Assembly (NCBI GenBank): GCA_003223255.1
Contig: QHYJ01000193.1
Span: 1-34,555 of the forward strand
DNA from: Acidobacteriota bacterium
Lineage (GTDB): Bacteria; Acidobacteriota; Terriglobia; Acidiferrales; UBA7541
Direction of reading: 5' to 3'
Length of the DNA stretch: 34,555 bases
A program made the translations under genes and the position numbers. The first letter of the stretch is position 1. Each line of letters opens with the position of its first letter. Shown one piece after another: positions 2,767 through 13,298 of the stretch. Under the pieces are notes generated by a model. It made no database searches. It was not told where the DNA came from and worked only from the letters and a program-made list of their open reading frames with translations.

Positions 2767-3380
2767 ATGACAAGCGAGATTCAGCCGGACAGGCTCGAAC
2801 CAAGCTGGCCCGCGATACTCGGTCAGTTAGGTCGCGAAAAGTTCCGGCTGGACGTGTCGCAGCTAAGCGCCAAGGAATTCGATCTCATCCACCAATGCAG
2901 GGCAGGCTGCCGACGCCGGGTCGAAAAGGACCTTGCGATGAGCGGACCGATTAGGCCATGGATCGTGGAAGTGTGTGAACGCGGCCTAAGATGCCGTGAG
3001 GCTTCCCAGAAGCCTGTACCTATAGACGGCGCACTGCTTGATGGTCTGCGAGATTGGAGCACGCAAGCACCGTACCGACAGCCGGGTGATTGGGTGTTTG
3101 CCAGCCCCGTCATGGATGGCAAGCAACCGTATTGGCAGAAACAATGCTGAAGTGCTACGTTCATCCCGCCGCGAAGCGCGTAGGCATCACCAAGGTTCTC
3201 GGATGGCATTCCTTCCGTAGAACGTTTGCAACGCTTCTAAGAGGCGGCGCTGAAGACTTGAAGACAGTCCAAGAACTGATGGGGCACGCACGGTCTCTAA
3301 CCCCGGCCAAGCCAGCCGCCCATCGAAAGTTGGTTGAATTGATTCGGCCAGCAGCAGAGACAGCAAATGGTCCTTTGTAG
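2767..3380 (+). pseudogene. Degraded tyrosine recombinase (site-specific integrase)
   Basis: Two frames together give a recombinase C-terminal domain. 2767-3147 ends with KPVPIDGALLDGLRDW and then DWVFASPVMDGKQPYW, typical of the region before the catalytic box. The next frame continues ETMLKCYVHPAAKRVGITK, then GWHSFRRTFATLL and VQELMGHA to a stop at 3380. Reading cca instead of ca near 3137 would join the frames, so this break equals one lost C of a CC pair. The segment that should carry the Tyr nucleophile (after MGHA, before LTPAKPAAHRK) is also missing, and most of the N-terminal core-binding domain is absent or unrecognisable. The enzyme is therefore dead even if the frameshift is an error. 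It ends 41 bases from the tRNA-Gly 3' end, the normal place for an integrase of a tRNA-targeting element. Confidence 0.72.
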
Positions 3381-3401
3381 TCCCACGCCGAAAACCAGTC
3401 G

Positions 3402-3420
3402 CTGTAAGTGATTGATTTTA
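3402..3420 (-). repeat. Short repeat copy 1, abutting tRNA 3' end
   Basis: The + strand reads CTGTAAGTGATTGATTTTA. On the minus strand it directly follows the tRNA-Gly CCA end. Two close relatives occur in the rplM-rpsI spacer (31340-31357 and 31411-31428), in the same orientation. Confidence 0.55.
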
Positions 3421-3494
3421 TGGAGCGGCCTATCGGAATCGAACCGACACCTGAACCTTGGCAAGGTTCCGTACTACCACTATACTAAGGCCGC
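3421..3494 (-). tRNA. tRNA-Gly (GCC)
   Basis: Read on the minus strand, it is a 74-nt cloverleaf with a perfect seven-pair acceptor stem (GCGGCCT with AGGCCGC), an anticodon arm with loop TTGCCAA giving anticodon GCC (glycine), a T-arm with GGTTCGATTCC, and a discriminator T followed by an encoded CCA (complement of 3421-3423). It is preceded by its own promoter at 3510-3538. Its 3' end faces the degraded integrase, so it is the probable attachment site of the element that brought the 1-3400 region. Confidence 0.95.
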
Positions 3495-4517: not shown

Positions 4518-4549
4518 AAAGCGCCCCGGCTTCAACTGGGGCGCTTTTT
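4518..4549. terminator. Intrinsic terminator between convergent genes
   Basis: AAAGCGCCCC, ten-base loop, GGGGCGCTTTTT: a perfect seven-pair GC stem (4521-4527 with 4538-4544) extended by A/T pairs and followed by a T-run on the + strand. It serves the gene ending at 4488. On the minus strand it starts right at the msrB stop codon and has a weaker T-run, so it may act in both directions. Confidence 0.9.
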
Positions 4550-4953
4550 CAGTCTTCGTCGAGGCTCAAAGCTGCGGAGTTAATGCAATAGCGCAAGCCC
4601 GTGGGCTGGGGGCCATCGTCAAACACGTGCCCAAGATGAGCATCGCAGCGGCTGCATTTCACCTCGATGCGGCGTATCCCGTGGCTGGTGTCGGATTCCT
4701 CCTCGATGGCGCCTTCGCCGGCAGGAGCAAAAAAACTCGGCCAGCCTGAGCCCGAGTGATATTTCGTCTCCGAACGAAACAGCGGTTGGCCGCAGCAGAC
4801 GCATTTGTACGTCCCGGGCGTTTCCGTATCTTCGTATTCCCCCGTGAAAGGGGGCTCAGTTCCCTTTTGCCGGGTCACATAATACTGATTCGGCGTAAGC
4901 TGTTTTTTCCAGGCCTGCTCGTCTTTTTTAACCTTTTTAACGTTGTCTGCCAT
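4549..4953 (-). CDS. msrB: Peptide-methionine (R)-S-oxide reductase MsrB
   Basis: 134 residues, full length for a single-domain cytoplasmic MsrB. It reduces the R epimer of oxidised methionine in proteins, using thioredoxin. Two zinc-binding pairs are seen, C51-x2-C54 and C100-x2-C103, with the fold motifs HSGSGWPSF (66-74) and [10 protein letters not shown] (106-115). The catalytic Cys is at position 123 in RYCINSAAL. An additional Cys at 53 sits inside the first zinc knuckle. ATG 4953 has GGAAGG upstream on the minus strand at suitable spacing. The gene is on its own, convergent with the small unknown gene and divergent from the his operon. Confidence 0.96.
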
Positions 4954-5067: not shown

Positions 5068-5096
5068 TTGACACGCGCATGGATTTGCTTTATTTT
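5068..5096 (+). promoter_or_regulatory. Promoter of the histidine operon
   Basis: -35 TTGACA (5068-5073) is a perfect match, the spacer is exactly 17 nt, and the -10 is TATTTT (5091-5096). The predicted start at about 5102-5104 lies only a few bases before the ATG of the His-rich leader frame (5107), so the leader mRNA would have almost no 5' untranslated region. Confidence 0.75.
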
Positions 5097-5106
5097 TGAG
5101 CTTGCA

Positions 5107-5184
5107 ATGGACCTCATGCACACAAGCCGGGCGCGTCGACACCATCATCACGGCCAAAGGCCGCGCCCGCTGAGGTGTGCATAG
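5107..5184 (+). CDS. hisL: Histidine operon leader peptide
   Basis: A 25-codon frame from ATG 5107 to TAG 5182, reading MDLMHTSRARRHHHHGQRPR and then PLRCA. It has one His at codon 5 and four consecutive His codons at 12-15 (5140-5151), far above chance in a peptide this short, placed between the promoter and the intrinsic terminator that precede hisI. This is the known design of his attenuation leaders in Enterobacteria, though no sequence similarity is claimed. A GAG at 5098-5100 is a possible weak ribosome binding site; given the predicted transcription start, the message may instead be translated leaderless. ATG 5116 is an alternative start that keeps all His codons. Confidence 0.85.
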   Translation: MDLMHTSRARRHHHHGQRPRPLRCA

Positions 5185-5250
5185 CAATCCGCTAAACAAA
5201 GCACTCTTCGGCCCGCCGGCACGACCAAGCCTGGCGGGTTTTTTGTTTTT
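5128..5250 (+). promoter_or_regulatory. Histidine attenuator (leader RNA structures)
   Basis: Three competing elements can be drawn. Hairpin 1 pairs CGGGCGCG (5128-5135) with CGCGCCCG (5162-5169), a perfect eight-pair stem whose loop holds the four His codons. An alternative pairing of GGCCG (5159-5163) with CGGCC (5209-5213) would consume the left edge of the terminator stem. The terminator is 5212-5250. Proposed logic: a ribosome stalled at His codons blocks hairpin 1, frees 5159-5163 to pair downstream and prevents termination. The stems are seen in the sequence; the switching is inferred. Confidence 0.7.
5212..5250 (+). terminator. Attenuator terminator upstream of hisI
   Basis: CCCGCC (5212-5217) pairs with GGCGGG (5233-5238), the inner GGC/GCC pairs add three more with one bulged T, and TTTTTTGTTTTT (5239-5250) follows. 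It lies 27 bases before hisI with no gene upstream other than the leader peptide. Confidence 0.9.
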
Positions 5251-5277
5251 GAACCGCGAAATTCGGAGGCAAAGGAA

Positions 5278-5667
5278 ATGAACATCGACTTTCAGAAAGG
5301 CGGCGGGCTGGTGCCAGCCATTATTCAAGACGAACGAAGCGGCGACGTCCTGATGCTTGGCTTCATGAACGCGGACTCGCTGAAGGAGACGCAGCGCTCC
5401 GGCGCAGTGGTGTTCTTTAGCCGCTCCCGAAACAAACTTTGGAAGAAAGGCGAATCCAGCGGACACGTTCTGCGCGTCCGCGAAATTCGCGTGGATTGCG
5501 ACGCGGACGCTTTGCTGGTGCGCGTCGAAGCTGTCGGGCCAGGCGTCTGTCACGAAGGCTATCGAAGCTGCTTCTTTCGTGCCGTCGAACCCGGCGGAGA
5601 TATGAGGGTCATTGCGGAACGCACGTATTCGCCGGAAGAAGTTTATGGATCGGAGAAGCGCCAATGA
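5278..5667 (+). CDS. hisI: Phosphoribosyl-AMP cyclohydrolase HisI
   Basis: 129 residues, the monofunctional size, without a fused HisE pyrophosphatase domain. It opens the adenine ring of phosphoribosyl-AMP, the third step of histidine synthesis. The signature region is intact: [10 protein letters not shown] (54-63), the metal-binding acids D73-C-D75-x-D77, and the zinc cysteines C91 (GVCHEGYRS) and C98 (SCFF), with C74 as the other family Cys. GGAGG at 5265-5269 sets ATG 5278. It is the first structural gene after the attenuator, and its stop overlaps hisG by four bases (ATGA), indicating coupled translation. A separate HisE must be encoded elsewhere. Confidence 0.96.
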
Positions 5668-6536
5668 GCCTGTTGAAGCTCGGAATACCGAAAGGCAGTT
5701 TGCAAGAAGCAACGCTGGATCTTTTTGCGCGAGCAGGCTGGAAAATCACGCTGAGTTCGCGGAGTTACGTACCCGCGATTGATGACCCAGAAATCGAATG
5801 TTTAATGGTACGTGCCCAGGAAATGGCGCGCTACGTGGAGTCAGGCACGTTGGACGCCGGAATCACCGGGCACGATTGGGTGGTGGAGACCGAGGCGGCT
5901 GTCGAGGAGCTTTCTGAGTTGGTTTATGCCAAGCAGCGACTGGCGCGAGTGCGCTGGGTGCTGGCCGTTCCGGAGGATTCACCGGTTCGCGGGCCACGGG
6001 ACTTGGAAGGCAAAGTGATTGCCACCGAGGTCGTGCAAATCACAAAGAAATACCTGGCGGAGCACGGCGTAAAGGCACGCGTGGAGTTTTCGTGGGGCGC
6101 GACGGAAGTAAAAGTGCCGCAACTTGCGGACGCCATTGTAGAAGTGACGGAGACGGGCTCGTCGCTGCGCGCCAATCGCCTGCGCGTCGTGGATACAGTT
6201 CTCGAATCCGCGACGGTCTTCATCATGAATCATCCTGCTTCCGCAGACTGCTGGAAGCGTGAAAAAGCGGAAAACCTGATCTTAATGCTGCAAGGCGCCA
6301 TCGCTGCCACAAGCAAAGTCGGGCTGCTCCTCAACGTACATCGCGACGATCTGCCTGGAGTGCTCGGCGTGCTTCCTGCGCTCAAAAAGCCGACGATTTC
6401 TGCGTTGAGCGATCCGGAATGGGTGGCCGTCAACACCATCATCGAAGAAGCCGTGGTGCGGCAGATTCTGCCAAGACTGAAAGCGGCCAAAGCCCAGGGG
6501 ATTGTCGAATATCCCTTGAACAAAATCGTGCTGTGA
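5664..6536 (+). CDS. hisG: ATP phosphoribosyltransferase HisG, long form
   Basis: 290 residues, the long (HisG_L) form with a C-terminal ACT-like regulatory domain at about 215-290, so it should be a hexamer inhibited by histidine without needing HisZ. It joins ATP and PRPP in the first, committed step. Seen: an N-terminal LGIPKGSL motif, DAGITGHDW (about 72-80), and the PRPP-binding region with [14 protein letters not shown] (about 155-168). A longer frame opens upstream, but ATG 5664 is chosen because it overlaps the hisI stop as ATGA, has GGAG at 5652-5655 and gives the family N-terminus [13 protein letters not shown]. The stop overlaps the hisD start by one base. Confidence 0.96.
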
Positions 6537-7786
6537 TGCGAATCCTGAAGCTCACACCCCAGACCGAAAAGTTGTTGCTGGCGCGCCGCGAGCAGCAAGA
6601 CGCCGAAGCCCAGGCGACTGCCACAGAAATTGTCGCGGACGTGCGCAAGCGTGGCGATGCCGCACTTTTTGCTTACACGAAGAAATTCGATCACACAGAT
6701 CTGGGTAAGACCGGAGTTTGGATCACACCACAGGAGATCCGAGCAGCTCACATAGCGACCAGCACAAAGTTTCGGAAAGCTATCGAAAAAGCCGCGGAGA
6801 ATGTTCGACGCATTGCCGAAAAGCAACTTCCGCGGCCCTGGACCGTCGAGACGACACGCGGAGTGAAGATTCGCCAAGTGGTCCGGCCTATCGCGTCCAT
6901 CGGTTGTTACATCCCGGGAGGCCGATTCTCGCTCGTTTCGACGCTGATTATGACAATTGTTCCGGCGAAAGTTGCTGGCGTGCCGAAAATCATCGCCGTT
7001 TGTCCCAAACCGAATCCTGAGTTACTGGCGGCTGCAAGAATTCTCGGCGTGGAGCGAATCGCACGGATCGGCGGGGCACAAGTCATCGCCGCGTTGGCTT
7101 ATGGCACCAAGAGTGTGCCGCGCGTGGACAAGATTTTTGGGCCGGGAAACAAATACGTCACCGCCGCCAAGCAACTTGTAAGCAACGACTGCGCGATCGA
7201 TTTGCCCGCGGGACCTACGGAAGCCATCGTCTTTGCGGAGCACGGCAATGCGCGATGGATCGCTGCCGACTTGCTGGCTCAAGCGGAACACGCAAAAGAC
7301 GCCGCAAGTTTCTTCGTCACGACTTCCCAAAACCTGGCTTGCGAAGTTCAACAAGAGGTTCGCAAACAGCTCGCGGGGCTATCCCGCAACATGGCTCTCT
7401 GTTCCACGCAAAACTCAGGCGCGATCCTTGTCTCAGAATCGGTTGATCAGGCTTGCGAATTCATCAACCGATTTGCCCCTGAACATCTCAGCCTTCCGGA
7501 AAACGGCGAGAAAGTTCTCCCGAAGATTCGCGCGGCCGGGACTGTATTTCTTGGCCCATGGGGAGCGCAGCCGCTGGGCGATTATGCCACGGGAAGCAAT
7601 CACGTTTTGCCGACCGGCGGCTGGGCGCGGCGGCGCGGCGGACTTTCCACCGCTGACTTTGTAAAATGCATCAGCGTGCAAACGATCACCAACAAAGGAT
7701 TCCTTTGTCTCGCAGAAACTGTGGAAACTCTGGCGGAATCGGAGGGCCTGATGGCCCATCGCAACGCCGTGGGAGTCCGCCGATGA
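6536..7786 (+). CDS. hisD: Histidinol dehydrogenase HisD
   Basis: 416 residues, near the usual 430. It oxidises histidinol to histidine in two NAD-dependent steps with a zinc ion, the end of the pathway. Motifs in order: GCYIPGGRFSLVSTLIM, KIFGPGNKYV, DLPAGPTEAIVFAE, DLLAQAEH, the catalytic pair E316-H317 in RFAPEHLSLP, and D349/H356 in GDYATGSNHVLPTGG. The second half of the last motif continues WARRRGGLS as in the family. ATG 6536 overlaps the hisG stop (TGATG); upstream in-frame sequence is inside hisG and is not used. The stop overlaps hisC by four bases. Confidence 0.97.
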   Translation: MRILKLTPQTEKLLLARREQQDAEAQATATEIVADVRKRGDAALFAYTKKFDHTDLGKTGVWITPQEIRAAHIATSTKFRKAIEKAAENVRRIAEKQLPRPWTVETTRGVKIRQVVRPIASIGCYIPGGRFSLVSTLIMTIVPAKVAGVPKIIAVCPKPNPELLAAARILGVERIARIGGAQVIAALAYGTKSVPRVDKIFGPGNKYVTAAKQLVSNDCAIDLPAGPTEAIVFAEHGNARWIAADLLAQAEHAKDAASFFVTTSQNLACEVQQEVRKQLAGLSRNMALCSTQNSGAILVSESVDQACEFINRFAPEHLSLPENGEKVLPKIRAAGTVFLGPWGAQPLGDYATGSNHVLPTGGWARRRGGLSTADFVKCISVQTITNKGFLCLAETVETLAESEGLMAHRNAVGVRR

Positions 7787-8868
7787 AAGTACAGTTGCCC
7801 GTGCGCCAGGCAATCTTGAATCGCCGCACGTACGAGGCTCCCGGAGAAGGGCGCTCCGGCAAAGTGCGCCTCGACTTCAATGAAAACACTTCCGGGTGCT
7901 CGCCCGCGGTTCGGCGTGCCCTGGCCAGGCTCACGGCCAAACAGTTGGCCATGTATCCCGAGTATCAGAAGCCGACAAATCGGCTGGCGCGTCATTTCGG
8001 GGTCCGCCCGGAGGAGCTGCTGCTCACCAATGGCGGCGACGACGCGCTGCGCGTTTTCTTCGATACCTTCGTCGAGCCGGACACCAGTATCCTGATCTGC
8101 GAGCCGACGTTTCCCATGTACCGCTATTGGGCAGAGATTGCCGGAGCCCGAGTTTGTGCGGTTCGCTGCGGCGCGAACATGGAATTTCCAGTCGATGATG
8201 TTCTTGCGGAGCTGCGCAAGAATCCTCGTGTTCTGTTTATTGCGAACCCGAACAATCCAACTGGCACGTTGATATGCGAAAAAGAGCTGCGGCGCATTCT
8301 GCAAGCCGCAACGGGCACGGTCGTGGTGATGGATGAAGCTTACGCGGAGTTCTCCGATTTCACGGCGCTTCCGTGGATTCACAAATATCCGCAACTGTTT
8401 GTCGCGCGAACGTTCTCTAAAGTTGCGGGACTTGCGTCACTGCGGCTCGGCGCAGTGCTTGCGTGTGCAGACTCACTCGCACTGGTGCGCCGTGCCATGC
8501 CGCCCTATCCCGTCAATCTGGCTGCGCTCATCGCTGCCCAAGCAGCCGCGGATGATCCTGCGACGATGCGCGCGTATGTGGCCGCGGTAAAACGCCTGCG
8601 TGTATGGGTGGCCAAGGAATTGTGTGGGCTGGGGCTCACGACTTACGCGAGCGCAGGAAATTTTCTTTTGGCGGATTTTGGGCCCGCTGGACCAGCGCTG
8701 TTTCGCAAGCTGGAACGACAAGGCATTTTGGTACGTGACCGGAGCAAGGACATGGGGAGCGGCTTCGTGCGCATCACCATTGGGACTGCCGCTGAAATGC
8801 AGCGGCTACTCAAGGCGATACGCAAGGAGTGGAAGCCGCAGGCGAAAAACGGCGCCACTCCTGAATGA
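7783..8868 (+). CDS. hisC: Histidinol-phosphate aminotransferase HisC
   Basis: 361 residues, fold-type I PLP enzyme that transfers an amino group from glutamate to imidazole-acetol phosphate. N155-P-N-N-P-T-G161 is the family motif around the substrate, DEAYAEF carries the Asp/Tyr that hold the cofactor, and Lys213 in [14 protein letters not shown] is the Schiff-base lysine. LDFNENTSG near residue 30 is the N-terminal substrate loop. ATG 7783 overlaps the hisD stop as ATGA. In this operon order the enzyme sits between hisD and hisB. The phosphatase that follows in the pathway (HisN or the HisB N-domain) is not in the window. Confidence 0.95.
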
Positions 8869-8875
8869 ACGGAAC

Positions 8876-9466
8876 ATGACTCGCATGGCGACAATTCACC
8901 GAAAAACCAACGAGACAGACATCCGGCTGAAGCTTTATCTCGATGGACGTGGCAAGGCGCAAATCGCCACCGGAATCCGCTTCTTTGACCACATGCTGGA
9001 TTTGGTTGCTCGCCACGGAGCTTTCGATCTAGAGATAAGCGCTCGCGGCGACCTGGACGTCGATCAGCATCATACTGTCGAGGATGTCGGAATTACGCTT
9101 GGCGAGGCGGTACAGAAGGCGCTTGGCTCGAAGCGCGGCATCTTGCGCGCCGGCTATTTCCTCATGCCCATGGACGAAACGCTTGCCGCCGCTGCCGTGG
9201 ACCTGAGTGGGCGTCCCTGCTGCGTTGTGACCGCGAAGATTGCTGCGGAGCGCGTTGGCGACTTTCAAGTGGAGCTGATGGAGGATTTTTTTCAGGGTTT
9301 CGCGCAAGCCGCGAGGGCTAACGTGCACTTGCGCGTTTTGTACGGGCGCTCCTCACACCATCAGGTGGAGGCTGCGTTCAAGGCGTTCGCGCGAGCGTTG
9401 CGCTTCGCTGTTTCGAAAGACAAGCGCCTGCGAAGAGTTTTGCCCAGCACGAAAGGGCTGTTATGA
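8876..9466 (+). CDS. hisB: Imidazoleglycerol-phosphate dehydratase HisB
   Basis: 196 residues, the monofunctional dehydratase without the N-terminal phosphatase domain found in Enterobacteria. It removes water from imidazole-glycerol phosphate at a di-manganese centre. The metal-binding repeats are seen: FFDHMLD (about 35-41), [10 protein letters not shown] with H65-H66, [16 protein letters not shown], and [16 protein letters not shown] with H161-H162 and E165. ATG 8876 gives the family opening MTR-x-A-x-I-x-R-K-T; ATG 8885 is a possible alternative with better spacing to a GGA. Seven bases separate it from hisC, the only non-overlapping junction in the operon. The stop overlaps hisH as ATGA. 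Confidence 0.96.
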
Positions 9467-10068
9467 GAGTCACGATTATCGACTATGGCGCGGGAAATGT
9501 GCCTTCTGTCGAGCGCGCGTTGCAGCGGCTCGGCGCAGAATCGCAACGAACTGGTTCGCCGGAGCAGATTTCGAAAGCCGAAGCCTTGCTGCTACCGGGC
9601 GTGGGACACTATGCCACACTGGTTCGCGCGCTCGATGAACAAAAGATGCGCGCACCCTTGATCGATGCCATCACACGCGGCGTGCCTTTTCTCGGTATCT
9701 GTCTGGGGTTGCAGGTGCTTTTCGAGTCGAGTGCGGAGGCACCCCCATTGCGCGGCTTCAACCTTCTTCCGGGGAAAGTGTGCGCTTTGCCATCTAATGT
9801 AAAACTGCCGCACATGGGATGGAATCAGATTGCTTTAAATCGTAAATCGCAGTTGCTCGAGGGCATCGATTCGAGCGCTTACTTTTATTTTGCGCATTCC
9901 TATGCCGCGCCCGAGTCGAATGGCTCCACCACCGCCACTTGTTTTCATGGGACTAACTTTGCAGCTGTCGTGGAAAATCACAACATCTGCGGCGTGCAAT
10001 TTCATCCCGAAAAGAGCGGAGACGCTGGCTCTCGCCTACTCCGAAACTTTCTCAGGTTGGCGGCATGA
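9463..10068 (+). CDS. hisH: Imidazole glycerol phosphate synthase, glutaminase subunit HisH
   Basis: 201 residues, class I glutamine amidotransferase. It releases ammonia from glutamine and passes it to HisF. The triad is Cys80 in [12 protein letters not shown], His181 and Glu183 in GVQFHPEKS. The N-terminus [10 protein letters not shown] and the oxyanion loop around LPGVG (44-48) fit the family. The start overlaps the hisB stop and its own stop overlaps hisF, both as ATGA, matching the need for equal amounts of the two subunits. Confidence 0.96.
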
Positions 10069-10829
10069 GTCTTGCGCATCGCATCATTCCCTGCCTCGAC
10101 ACGGACGGAGGACGCGTCGTGAAGGGCGTGAACTTTGTCGGCTTGCGGGATGCGGGTGATCCTGTGGCTTTGGCTGCCCGCTACAACGACGAAGGTGCGG
10201 ATGAACTCGTGGTACTCGATATCGCCGCTTCGCGTGATCGCCGCCCCACGTTTCTAGAGACCATTCGGCGCGTCGCCGCGGAGCTTTCCATCCCACTCAC
10301 CGCGGGCGGCGGCATCCGAACGCTCGAAGACGGCCGTGCCGTTGTGCGGGCCGGCGCAGACAAAGTCACGGTGAACACGGCAGCGGCAGCGCGGCCCGAA
10401 TTGATTTCCGAGCTCTCGCGCGAATTTGGCGCGCAAGCCGTGGTTTTGGCCATTGACGCAAAGCGAAATGGCCATCACTGGGATGTCATGATTCGCGGCG
10501 GCCGTGAATCCGCCTCTCGGGACGCTATTGAATGGGCGAAGAACGGCGTTCGATTGGGCGCCGGAGAAATTCTCCTCACTTCTGTTGACCGCGACGGGAC
10601 GCAGATGGGCTTTGATACGAAGCTAACCGCCGCAATCTCCAAAGCCGTATCTGTTCCCGTCATCGCTTCTGGGGGCGCCAAGCTACCGGAACATTTTGTT
10701 GAGATTTTCAAGGAAGGAGCAGCGGATGCAGCGCTGGCCGCTTCCATCTTTCATGATGGCGTGCAACCCATTCGCGCGCTCAAGGAGTTTCTCGCCGCCA
10801 ATGGGGTTGAGGCTCGCTGGCCGTGCTGA
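10065..10829 (+). CDS. hisF: Imidazole glycerol phosphate synthase, cyclase subunit HisF
   Basis: 254 residues, a TIM barrel that uses ammonia from HisH to form imidazole-glycerol phosphate and AICAR. The two catalytic acids are Asp12 (IIPCLDTDGGRVVKG) and Asp131 (VLAIDAKRNG), one position later than the usual 11/130. Phosphate-binding loops AGGGIRTLED and ASGGAKLPEH are at the ends of strands 3 and 7. The distinctive TSVDRDGTQMGFD motif separates it from HisA. The stop is overlapped by the hisA GTG start by seven bases. Confidence 0.97.
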   Translation: MSLAHRIIPCLDTDGGRVVKGVNFVGLRDAGDPVALAARYNDEGADELVVLDIAASRDRRPTFLETIRRVAAELSIPLTAGGGIRTLEDGRAVVRAGADKVTVNTAAAARPELISELSREFGAQAVVLAIDAKRNGHHWDVMIRGGRESASRDAIEWAKNGVRLGAGEILLTSVDRDGTQMGFDTKLTAAISKAVSVPVIASGGAKLPEHFVEIFKEGAADAALAASIFHDGVQPIRALKEFLAANGVEARWPC

Positions 10830-11512
10830 TTCCCTGCATTGATCTGCAGGACGGGCAAGCCGTTCAATTGGTGCACGGTCGAACGCGCGAACTTGCCGTC
10901 GCCGACGTTTTTGGCCTGCTGCAGAAATTCAAGAAGTATCCGTGGCTCCACGTCATCGACCTTGATGCGGCCATGGGCAAAGGATCGAACGACGAACTCG
11001 TTCGCGAGCTTTGCGCGCAGGCAGAAACAAAATTCAAAATGAAAGTTCGCGTGGGCGGCGGGATTCGCACAATTCTTCGCGCAGCACAAATTGCCTCATG
11101 GGGAGCAAATCAGATTGTCGTCGGAAGCGCAGCGTTCCGCGATGGAAAAATCAATGTCCGCTTTTTGCGGCGACTCACTAGACAAGTGAATCGTAAACGC
11201 ATTGTCATCGCATTGGATACCTTGCAAGGAAGAATCACGATCCATGGCTGGCGCAAGCAGATCGCGCTACAACCAGAAAGAGTGATGCCGCAACTCGAGC
11301 CCTTTTGTGCGGGCTTTTTATGCACTGATGTGGACCGCGAGGGCACCATGACCGGCGCAAATCTACAATGGTTCCGAAAACTCCGCGCTGCAACCGATCA
11401 TCCCATTATCGCTGCCGGTGGCATTCGAACGCGGCGCGAGATCGCCACGCTCGAAAAAATGGGCATGGATGCCGCGGTTGGCATGGCTTTGTACAAAAAC
11501 TGCCTTCGTTGA
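10823..11512 (+). CDS. hisA: ProFAR isomerase HisA
   Basis: 229 residues, TIM-barrel isomerase acting on ProFAR, closely related to HisF. Catalytic acids are Asp7 in MLIPCIDLQDGQAVQL and Asp132 in IVIALDTLQGRITIHGW; phosphate loops are VRVGGGIRT and IIAAGGIRTRRE, and CTDVDREGTMTG matches the family strand-6 loop. The GTG start at 10823 lies inside the end of hisF, so translation is probably coupled. It is slightly shorter than the usual 240-245 residues. As the last gene of the operon it runs toward the phosphorylase gene with a 42-base gap and no clear terminator. Confidence 0.94.
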   Translation: MLIPCIDLQDGQAVQLVHGRTRELAVADVFGLLQKFKKYPWLHVIDLDAAMGKGSNDELVRELCAQAETKFKMKVRVGGGIRTILRAAQIASWGANQIVVGSAAFRDGKINVRFLRRLTRQVNRKRIVIALDTLQGRITIHGWRKQIALQPERVMPQLEPFCAGFLCTDVDREGTMTGANLQWFRKLRAATDHPIIAAGGIRTRREIATLEKMGMDAAVGMALYKNCLR

Positions 11513-11554: not shown

Positions 11555-13298
11555 TCAACGCAGATACGCATCCGTGATGTATTGCTGCAGCATGCGCTGC
11601 GTGTTGAAGAATGAGCCGTTGATCGCGATGGTGTGCTGCATCACTTCGAGGCACTTGTGGCGCTCGCCATAGTACAAAGGAAGGATGACGCTCTCGAGTT
11701 TCGAATAAAGCGAGTCGGCCTCCGTTTGGTTGTCGGTCGCGGCGGCGTTGCCGGAGCCCCGGCGCGTGTCTCCAATGGACCAGCCGGTCACTCCCTCGAT
11801 GTGGCCCTCGACCCACCAGCCATCCAAGATGCTCAAGCTGGGAACGCCGTTGAGCGCCGCCTTCATGCCGCTGGTGCCGGAAGCCTCCAGAGGAAACTGC
11901 GGCGTGTTGAGCCACAGATCCACACCGGAAGTCATTTTCCCACCCAATTCGAGGTTGTAATCATCCAGAAACACAACGGGAACATTTTTCCGCAGCGCTT
12001 TTTTCGCCTTGTAAATACGGCGAATGATGTCTTTGCCGCCCGCGTCATTGGGGTGCGCTTTGCCGGCAAAAATAATCTGAAAATGGCCAGCATCTTTCGC
12101 AATTTGGCGCAAGCGATCGAGGTCGGACAAGATGAGGTCGGCGCGCTTGTAGCCGGTGGCGCGGCGTGCGAAGCCAATCGTAAATATCTCAGAATCCAGA
12201 TGGAGGCCCGTTTTCGTACGGACCAATTCAAGCAATTCGTGCTTGGCGATCAGAAGCGCCGCCCAAAGATCCTCTGCGGGTAGGCCAAGCGCGCTGCGCA
12301 GACTGAAATTGTCTTCGCGCCACGAGGGAATGTAGCGATCGAAAAGCTGCTGAAACGCTGGGCATGTCCAAGTCCCCGCATGGACGCCATTCGTGATGGC
12401 TTCAATGGGCACCTCGGGAAACATTTGGCGTGAAGTTTCGCCGTGCTGTTTGGCCACTCCATTGACGTAGGTGCTCAAGCTCAATGCCAATTGTGTCATG
12501 TTCACCGCAGCGCCTTGTCGCGCGGCTTCCTGCAAACCGGATATATTTCGATCCGATTGCAGAATCCGCCTCACCAGGTCCGCAGCGGAAGCATCGCTCA
12601 AGTCAAAAAAGTTGAGCTGCTCGGGAAACACACGAGTGAGGTACTCCATCGGAAAACGATCGTGCCCGGCGGGAACTGGCGTGTGCGTAGTGAAAACGCA
12701 CTTGCTGCGGACTTTTTCGATATCCTCGCCGCGGATGGAGCTGCGGCCAGCCTTCTGAGCCTCCTCTCCCAGCAATTGCAAAGCGAGAAGAGCCGCATGG
12801 CCTTCATTCATGTGAAACCGGGTGAGATCGTTGTAACCCAGTGCGCGCAGCATGCGGACACCGCCAATGCCGAGTATGACTTCCTGGCAAATTGCGATCA
12901 AACTCCGTATTCGAAGGCAAATCAGCGTCCAGAAAGTACACCGGTACCTCGAATCCGTGAACCCCCTTGACGGCGTACTTCCAGCAGCGAAGCTCGAGCC
13001 GCCGATTTTCAATGGGAACGCTGGTGCGCGCTGATTCTTCGGTCAGGAAGTCGGCGACGTTCCACTCGACCGGCTCTTCCGTTTGCGATCCGTCCTCCGC
13101 AAGGCGTTGCGTGAAGTATCCTTTGCGATAGAGGAGCGAGACGGCCACCATCGGAACGCGCAAGTCCGAGGCGGCGCGAACGGTGTCGCCCGCCAGCACG
13201 CCAAGCCCGCCGCTGTAGCTGGGCATGGCGTTTTGCAGCGCAATTTCCATCGAAAAGTAAGCAATGAATTGTTTTGCCGAATTCGACTGCGTGGACAT
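11555..13298 (-). pseudogene. glgP: Alpha-glucan phosphorylase (GT35), frame broken by a deletion
   Basis: Two minus-strand frames make one short-type glycogen/alpha-glucan phosphorylase. 13298 to about 12894 encodes the N-terminus ([20 protein letters not shown], then [17 protein letters not shown]) up to [14 protein letters not shown]. About 12889 to 11555 continues [20 protein letters not shown] through [37 protein letters not shown] and the PLP-lysine region EASGTSGMKAALNG. The stretch usually lying between (about 14 residues, L-T-H-x-L-Y-G-G-D-like) is absent, so roughly 40 bases appear lost and the frame shifts. The enzyme would release glucose-1-phosphate from stored glycogen. If the deletion is real the gene is dead; everything else is well conserved, so decay is recent or the break is an assembly error. 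ATG 13298 follows a weak GAGTGAG. Confidence 0.85.

Follow-up and report, generated by a model that had tools for sequence, protein, structure and literature searches.

Transcription of the histidine biosynthesis operon in the genome of a soil acidobacterium is very probably controlled by a ribosome-mediated attenuator. The region concerned lies upstream of hisI in a contig of 34,555 nucleotides (QHYJ01000193.1, assembly GCA_003223255.1), analysed at its full length and referred to here as the window. A His-rich upstream open reading frame (ORF) and an intrinsic terminator between that ORF and hisI precede an eight-gene operon, hisIGDCBHFA, as judged from Pfam hits and gene order (Table 1). 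The initial annotation had proposed his attenuation of the enterobacterial type for this lineage and was right in kind; conservation among relatives and the predicted alternative pairings both support it. The mechanism itself is textbook; the novelty lies in its lineage, in the family of RNAs and in the predicted near-leaderless design.

Table 1. Elements of the putative his attenuator, the operon behind it and a second candidate in the source genome (positions are those of the window unless a contig is named).
Feature	Position	Strand	Details
Promoter	5068–5096	+	−35 TTGACA 5068–5073; 17-nt spacer; −10 TATTTT 5091–5096
Leader peptide ORF	5107–5184	+	25 codons, MDLMHTSRARRHHHHGQRPRPLRCA and stop; near-leaderless (predicted)
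Leader hairpin (1:2)	5116–5182	+	core 5128–5135/5162–5169; outer stem 5116–5123/5175–5182
His control codons	5140–5151	+	CAC CAT CAT CAC, four in a row; fifth His codon 5119–5121
Antiterminator (2:3), predicted	5160–5220	+	5160–5163/5217–5220, 5165–5166/5215–5216, 5169–5175/5206–5212, 5177–5180/5201–5204, 5182–5185/5191–5194
Intrinsic terminator hairpin (3:4)	5210–5240	+	5210–5219/5231–5240; core 5212–5219/5231–5238
Terminator U tract	5239–5250	+	TTTTTTGTTTTT; T6GT5 after hairpin
Shine–Dalgarno motif of hisI	5265–5269	+	GGAGG; outside terminator and every predicted hairpin
hisI, phosphoribosyl-AMP cyclohydrolase	5278–5667	+	PF01502; first gene of operon
hisG, hisD, hisC, hisB, hisH, hisF, hisA	5664–11512	+	PF01634/PF08029, PF00815, PF00155, PF00475, PF00117, PF00977 twice; hisC, hisH, hisF and hisA named from Pfam hits combined with gene order
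Second candidate attenuator (L088)	G000:C201:6487–9526; promoter C201:7987–8026	−	found by promoter-to-ATG pattern search

The leader frame is present as initially described, with 25 codons and five His codons, and ends in UAG at 5182–5184. It had also been called a very short leader; 25 codons are not short compared with the 16 of Escherichia coli hisL, and the short part is the predicted 5′ untranslated region (UTR). A HisI scan of genome contigs yielded 80 loci (55–91% identical), making 81 with the window; these are mostly MAGs of Acidobacteria gp2/Acidoferrales, Terriglobia and Bryobacterales. At hisI the best relatives, 82–91% identical, are MAGs labelled ‘gp2’ Acidobacteria, which confirms the acidobacterial origin suspected from the outset. 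An ORF of 10–51 amino acids that begins with ATG and holds at least four His in seven codons occurs in 70 of the 81 hisI upstream regions; dinucleotide shuffles of the same regions give 0.13 on average, and the reverse strand gives 0. Relatives have 3–6 His codons at the same place, with CAC and CAT swapped, and the first His codon lies a median of 15 codons 5′ of the stop. In an alignment of 36 gp2-type rows (A1), the His ORF ends in frame at the same UAG column in 36/36 rows, and gaps between the arms of the leader hairpin (P1) come only in runs of 3, 6 or 12 nt. The constant in-frame stop and the indels in multiples of three indicate that the reading frame is under selection, conservation of the RNA notwithstanding.

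The eight-pair hairpin noticed earlier around the His codons is borne out by the exact complementarity of its two core strands and by the minimum-energy fold, which contains nearly the same stem; the outer stem had gone unmentioned. The fold of RNA 5107–5244 has a z-score of −3.5, with 0/200 shuffles as stable. Among the aligned relatives, the leader hairpin (core and outer stem) is 67% paired, against 29–51% in slid controls, and its covariation score exceeds 500/500 shuffles. The intrinsic terminator had likewise been placed correctly, just before hisI; its core is paired in 94% of cells, and a compensatory change from U-A to C-G at 5217:5233 is found in eight sequences. A simple scanner missed the window terminator because the loop exceeds 8 nt, and a simple finder gave weak or no terminators for some Terriglobia relatives (L107, L109, L113, L131). 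By a looser finder, 73 loci have both a leader and a terminator, the latter lying a median of 27 nt past the stop (interquartile range 25–28); a terminator is present in nearly all leader loci. The comparison proposed at the outset, of the region upstream of hisI in relatives, thus finds the His run, hairpin and terminator conserved. The compensatory changes expected alongside are clear in the terminator and present in the leader hairpin. In the antiterminator, changes are mostly one-sided and covariation is not above the column-shuffle control; its support comes from the pairing rate and from synonymous recoding.

The antiterminator is predicted at −28 kcal/mol in the truncated RNA, where it takes up the 5′ arm of the terminator. 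Its own 5′ strand is the 3′ strand of the leader hairpin; as one common strand serves both structures, the arrangement follows a trp-like 1:2 / 2:3 / 3:4 logic. Pairing is seen in 78% of cells, against 30–51% in slid controls. In Bryobacteraceae, the strand GCGACGGGC can pair either with CCGTCGC of the leader hairpin or with GCCCGCCGC of the terminator. The initial annotation had suggested a shorter pairing, 5159–5163 with 5209–5213. These segments are complementary, and an alternative pairing that overlaps the terminator arm does appear to exist; the coordinates, however, were wrong, since the partner varies among relatives (CGGCC, CAGCC, TTGGC, TTAGC) and the longer pairing is both predicted and conserved.

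Dependence on ribosome position was modelled at 73 loci by removing the RNA up to the ribosome edge and folding the remainder. In the truncated transcript, a ribosome at the first His codon leaves the terminator 5′ arm paired at a mean of 0.79; the value falls to 0.47 for a ribosome at the stop (starved versus stop, Wilcoxon p = 1e-13) and is 0.68 for ribosome-free RNA. Synonymous recoding of the leader lowers starved pairing from 0.79 to 0.69 (Wilcoxon p = 4.6e-7), which argues that antiterminator pairing does not simply follow from the encoded peptide; this synonymous null is not beaten in several relatives (L008, L009, L010, L014, L025, L053, L058, L065). Because the loci are related, these p-values overstate independence and are optimistic. 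The intermediate value without a ribosome means that super-attenuation in the absence of translation is only partly supported by the arm metric. In equilibrium folds of the full-length RNA, the terminator has a mean probability of 0.75 under starvation, compared with 0.92 when the ribosome is at the stop; as it is usually favoured even in the starved state, the model needs the antiterminator to form before the 3′ arm of the terminator is made. For E. coli hisL, used as a positive control, the arm metric gives 0.63 starved, 0.28 at the stop and 0.07 with no ribosome, while equilibrium terminator probability is 0.97 in every state. The latter was therefore dropped as a readout, and arm pairing in the truncated transcript was taken as the informative metric. 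In silico, the antiterminator is accordingly predicted to exclude the terminator in a manner that depends on where the ribosome stands.

On this model, transcription would begin a few nucleotides before the leader AUG, and the peptide would be translated from near the 5′ end of the RNA. With His-tRNA plentiful, the ribosome would pass the His codons and reach the UAG, masking the antiterminator 5′ strand (about 5167–5199); the terminator could then form and RNA polymerase would stop before hisI. With His-tRNA short, the ribosome would stall at the run of four His codons and cover the 5′ arm of the leader hairpin. This would free 5160–5185 to pair with 5191–5220 once transcribed; the antiterminator would hold the terminator 5′ arm, and the operon would be transcribed. 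If no ribosome is present, the leader hairpin would keep the antiterminator strand occupied, and transcription would probably terminate by default. Sequence and comparison establish the ORF with its reading frame, the His codons, the terminator, the mutually exclusive pairings and the distance from promoter to ATG; translation, stalling, termination and the response to histidine are deduced.

It is highly improbable that the His-rich peptide is instead a functional small protein, for instance a metal-binding one, with an ordinary partial terminator behind it and an RNA that is no His-tRNA switch. His-rich peptides can bind metals, and the peptide is conserved past the His run, the gp2 consensus continuing as ...RAHRHHHHHGHTPRPLRCA. 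Against this, the C-termini differ wholesale among subfamilies (RPLRCA, PCPRRLE, RRAxS, SVSAAVSG) with no loss of the hairpin and terminator logic, hisI and a terminator nearly always accompany the ORF, and the predicted antiterminator is weakened by synonymous recoding. Very unlikely, too, is attenuation acting mainly on hisI translation or via Rho rather than by intrinsic termination. Translational versions of such attenuators are known (PMC9413887), and the four Terriglobia loci with weak or no terminators by the simple finder would fit; yet the Shine–Dalgarno motif of hisI in the window is clear of all predicted hairpins, and its terminator, whose GC stem is strong and whose U tract is long, is conserved in nearly all relatives from the HisI scan. 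A chance meeting of a His-rich frame, a neighbouring gene's terminator and a random hairpin, conceivable in so far as GC-rich DNA often has short ORFs and hairpins, is already refuted by the comparative sequence data, with 70 His-rich ORFs where 0.13 were expected, and by the msrB-like (SelR/MsrB) neighbour at 4549–4953, which is divergent, so that the terminator is not its own.

Returning to the ribosome-mediated attenuator, its consensus promoter is present as claimed at the outset, with 10/12 matches against 0.1 expected in shuffles, and predicts a transcription start at about 5102–5104. The 5′ UTR counted up to 5107 would then be about 4 nt long and without a Shine–Dalgarno motif. Most gp2-type relatives have TTGAC(A/G), a 15–18 nt spacer and the same distance to the leader ATG as the window; Bryobacterales-type relatives have TGnTATACT-like −10 boxes instead. 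A TANNNT hexamer ends 7–12 nt 5′ of the leader ATG in 68/72 loci, compared with 3/72 for hisI starts and 3.7% for all ATGs of the same loci. Conversely, a Shine–Dalgarno-like motif precedes the leader ATG in 4/72 loci but hisI in 46/72. For both counts, the in-frame candidate with the highest-scoring −10 box was taken as the leader ATG, a mild bias towards a near-leaderless result, but most loci offer a single candidate. Standard spacing from −10 to +1 gives a predicted 5′ UTR of about 2–5 nt across loci. Given the closeness of the −10 box to the ATG and the near absence of Shine–Dalgarno motifs, we predict a near-leaderless start of the peptide across loci, a feature that the initial annotation had missed and that is added here. 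Leaderless genes in Acidobacteria have been estimated at 13.3% (Zheng et al., PMC3160421). The source genome contains 21 matches to TTGACAN16-18TANNNTN7-12ATG and 2 to the reversed pattern, an excess that suggests a sizeable set of near-leaderless genes; several matches stand before full-length genes, such as transcription regulators.

Beyond the HisI scan, a covariance model of A1 matches in 21/297 sampled acidobacterial genomes, once per genome, and the matches include families outside the class of the window. A His-rich leader is found at 19/21 of these places and is absent at the weak matches L116 and L122. When hisI-first loci in further families (L131–L150) were inspected directly, each proved to have a His-rich frame upstream; the C-termini are subfamily-specific, and the spacing between promoter and ATG is mostly unchanged. 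From the model matches and the inspected loci together, hisI-first operons of Acidobacteriota commonly carry the putative attenuator. At loci whose hisI is part of a long or fused frame (L151–L169), a leader directly upstream is mostly missing, L154 being an exception; this would be expected if hisI is not the first gene there. No similar DNA was found in plasmids. In another acidobacterial family, L120 (positions 1235–1629) has tandem His-rich ORFs, MVIATVSRHHHHHHPILGPGTGARAV with its stop and one ending in HAHHHHHVHFPPG before the stop, each followed by a terminator-like hairpin, with a hisG-like gene downstream; these may be tandem his attenuators. A Candidatus Acidoferrales MAG has a lysine riboswitch (RF00168, 57.2 bits) on the minus strand of L023 (positions 1490–1697), divergent from the his leader.

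The enterobacterial hisL attenuator (RF00514) is alike in its His-codon ORF, alternative hairpins and intrinsic terminator before the first gene of a his operon. Nevertheless, the Rfam model RF00514 (His_leader) matches neither the window nor any of 12 relatives checked, although it scores 131.6 bits on the E. coli control. The 16 codons of E. coli hisL include 7 His next to the stop, whereas in the acidobacterial leader of about 25 codons the His run is farther from the stop; stop and terminator are 61 nt apart in E. coli, and the acidobacterial median is less than half of this. At least about 38 nt also separate the ATG of E. coli hisL from any −10-like hexamer, in contrast to the acidobacterial leader, predicted to be almost without a 5′ UTR. 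In E. coli trpL, attenuation works through the segment pairings 1:2, 2:3 and 3:4. The likeness to this type is that one strand pairs with either the leader hairpin or the terminator 5′ arm and that the stop codon falls in segment 2; here, however, His is the sensing codon, and the RNA sequence is unrelated. A histidine T-box was not found; at E ≤ 5, the Rfam search of the region gave just a sub-threshold anti-hemB hit.

Predicted His-leader attenuators in Firmicutes (hisS/hisZ leader, PMC2965389; Bacillus cereus group and others, PMC9413887) also combine His-codon peptides with a terminator and antiterminator and are thought to have arisen independently; they differ in phylum and RNA sequences. 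A search of these two papers found no function assigned to an acidobacterial attenuator. No earlier report of a his attenuator in Acidobacteria was found in the literature covered, which was incomplete, and it is apparently unreported. Leaderless leader peptides have been described for Sinorhizobium meliloti trpL (PMC7298713) and for polycysteine sORFs of mycobacteria (PMC9031893, citing Canestrari et al. 2020). Both resemble the acidobacterial leader in that the peptide starts at or a few nucleotides from the RNA 5′ end; they belong to other phyla and sense other amino acids, and the acidobacterial start is predicted from the promoter, with a UTR of 2–5 nt rather than zero.

A leader search of the source genome with the single promoter-to-ATG pattern gave a second candidate attenuator (L088) of cysteine/methionine type, with a near-leaderless ORF, MKNCCQMMCCPCACSAMCQMTPISGQRSFRT and stop, and a terminator, GCCCAC...GTGGGCTTTTTT, upstream of a nitrite/sulfite reductase gene (PF01077, PF03460). 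In the fold predicted for starvation, the terminator 5′ arm is sequestered, and the candidate parallels the mycobacterial cysteine sORFs. No attenuators were seen at trpE and leuA of the source genome. We see an even chance that amino-acid attenuators of independent origin form a family spanning the whole phylum Acidobacteriota, with ribosomes loading at the RNA 5′ end on a near-terminal AUG; its his version would control hisI-first operons in several families belonging to more than one class, and its Cys/Met version the sulfite/nitrite reductase of the source genome. If 5′-end loading is true, transcription start and start of sensing would coincide. With the putative attenuator, a major soil phylum would gain a defined regulator open to testing and a family ready for annotation. 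The near-leaderless sensor ORFs would also form a natural set, each with its promoter, start codon, sensing codons and terminator inside about 180 nt.

Three further observations concern the surroundings of the operon in the window. Two small adjacent ORFs on the plus strand (1856–2547) resemble, by eye, a Phd/VapB-type antitoxin and a PIN-domain toxin. At 3090–3494, a tRNA-Gly (gcc) on the minus strand lies beside a short ORF resembling a tyrosine-recombinase remnant (HSFRRTFATLL...ELMGHA), possibly an old integration site. Finally, a gene that by eye is glycogen-phosphorylase-like (11555–13298, minus strand) is split into overlapping frames, 11555–13012 and 12804–13298, possibly by a frameshift or an assembly error.
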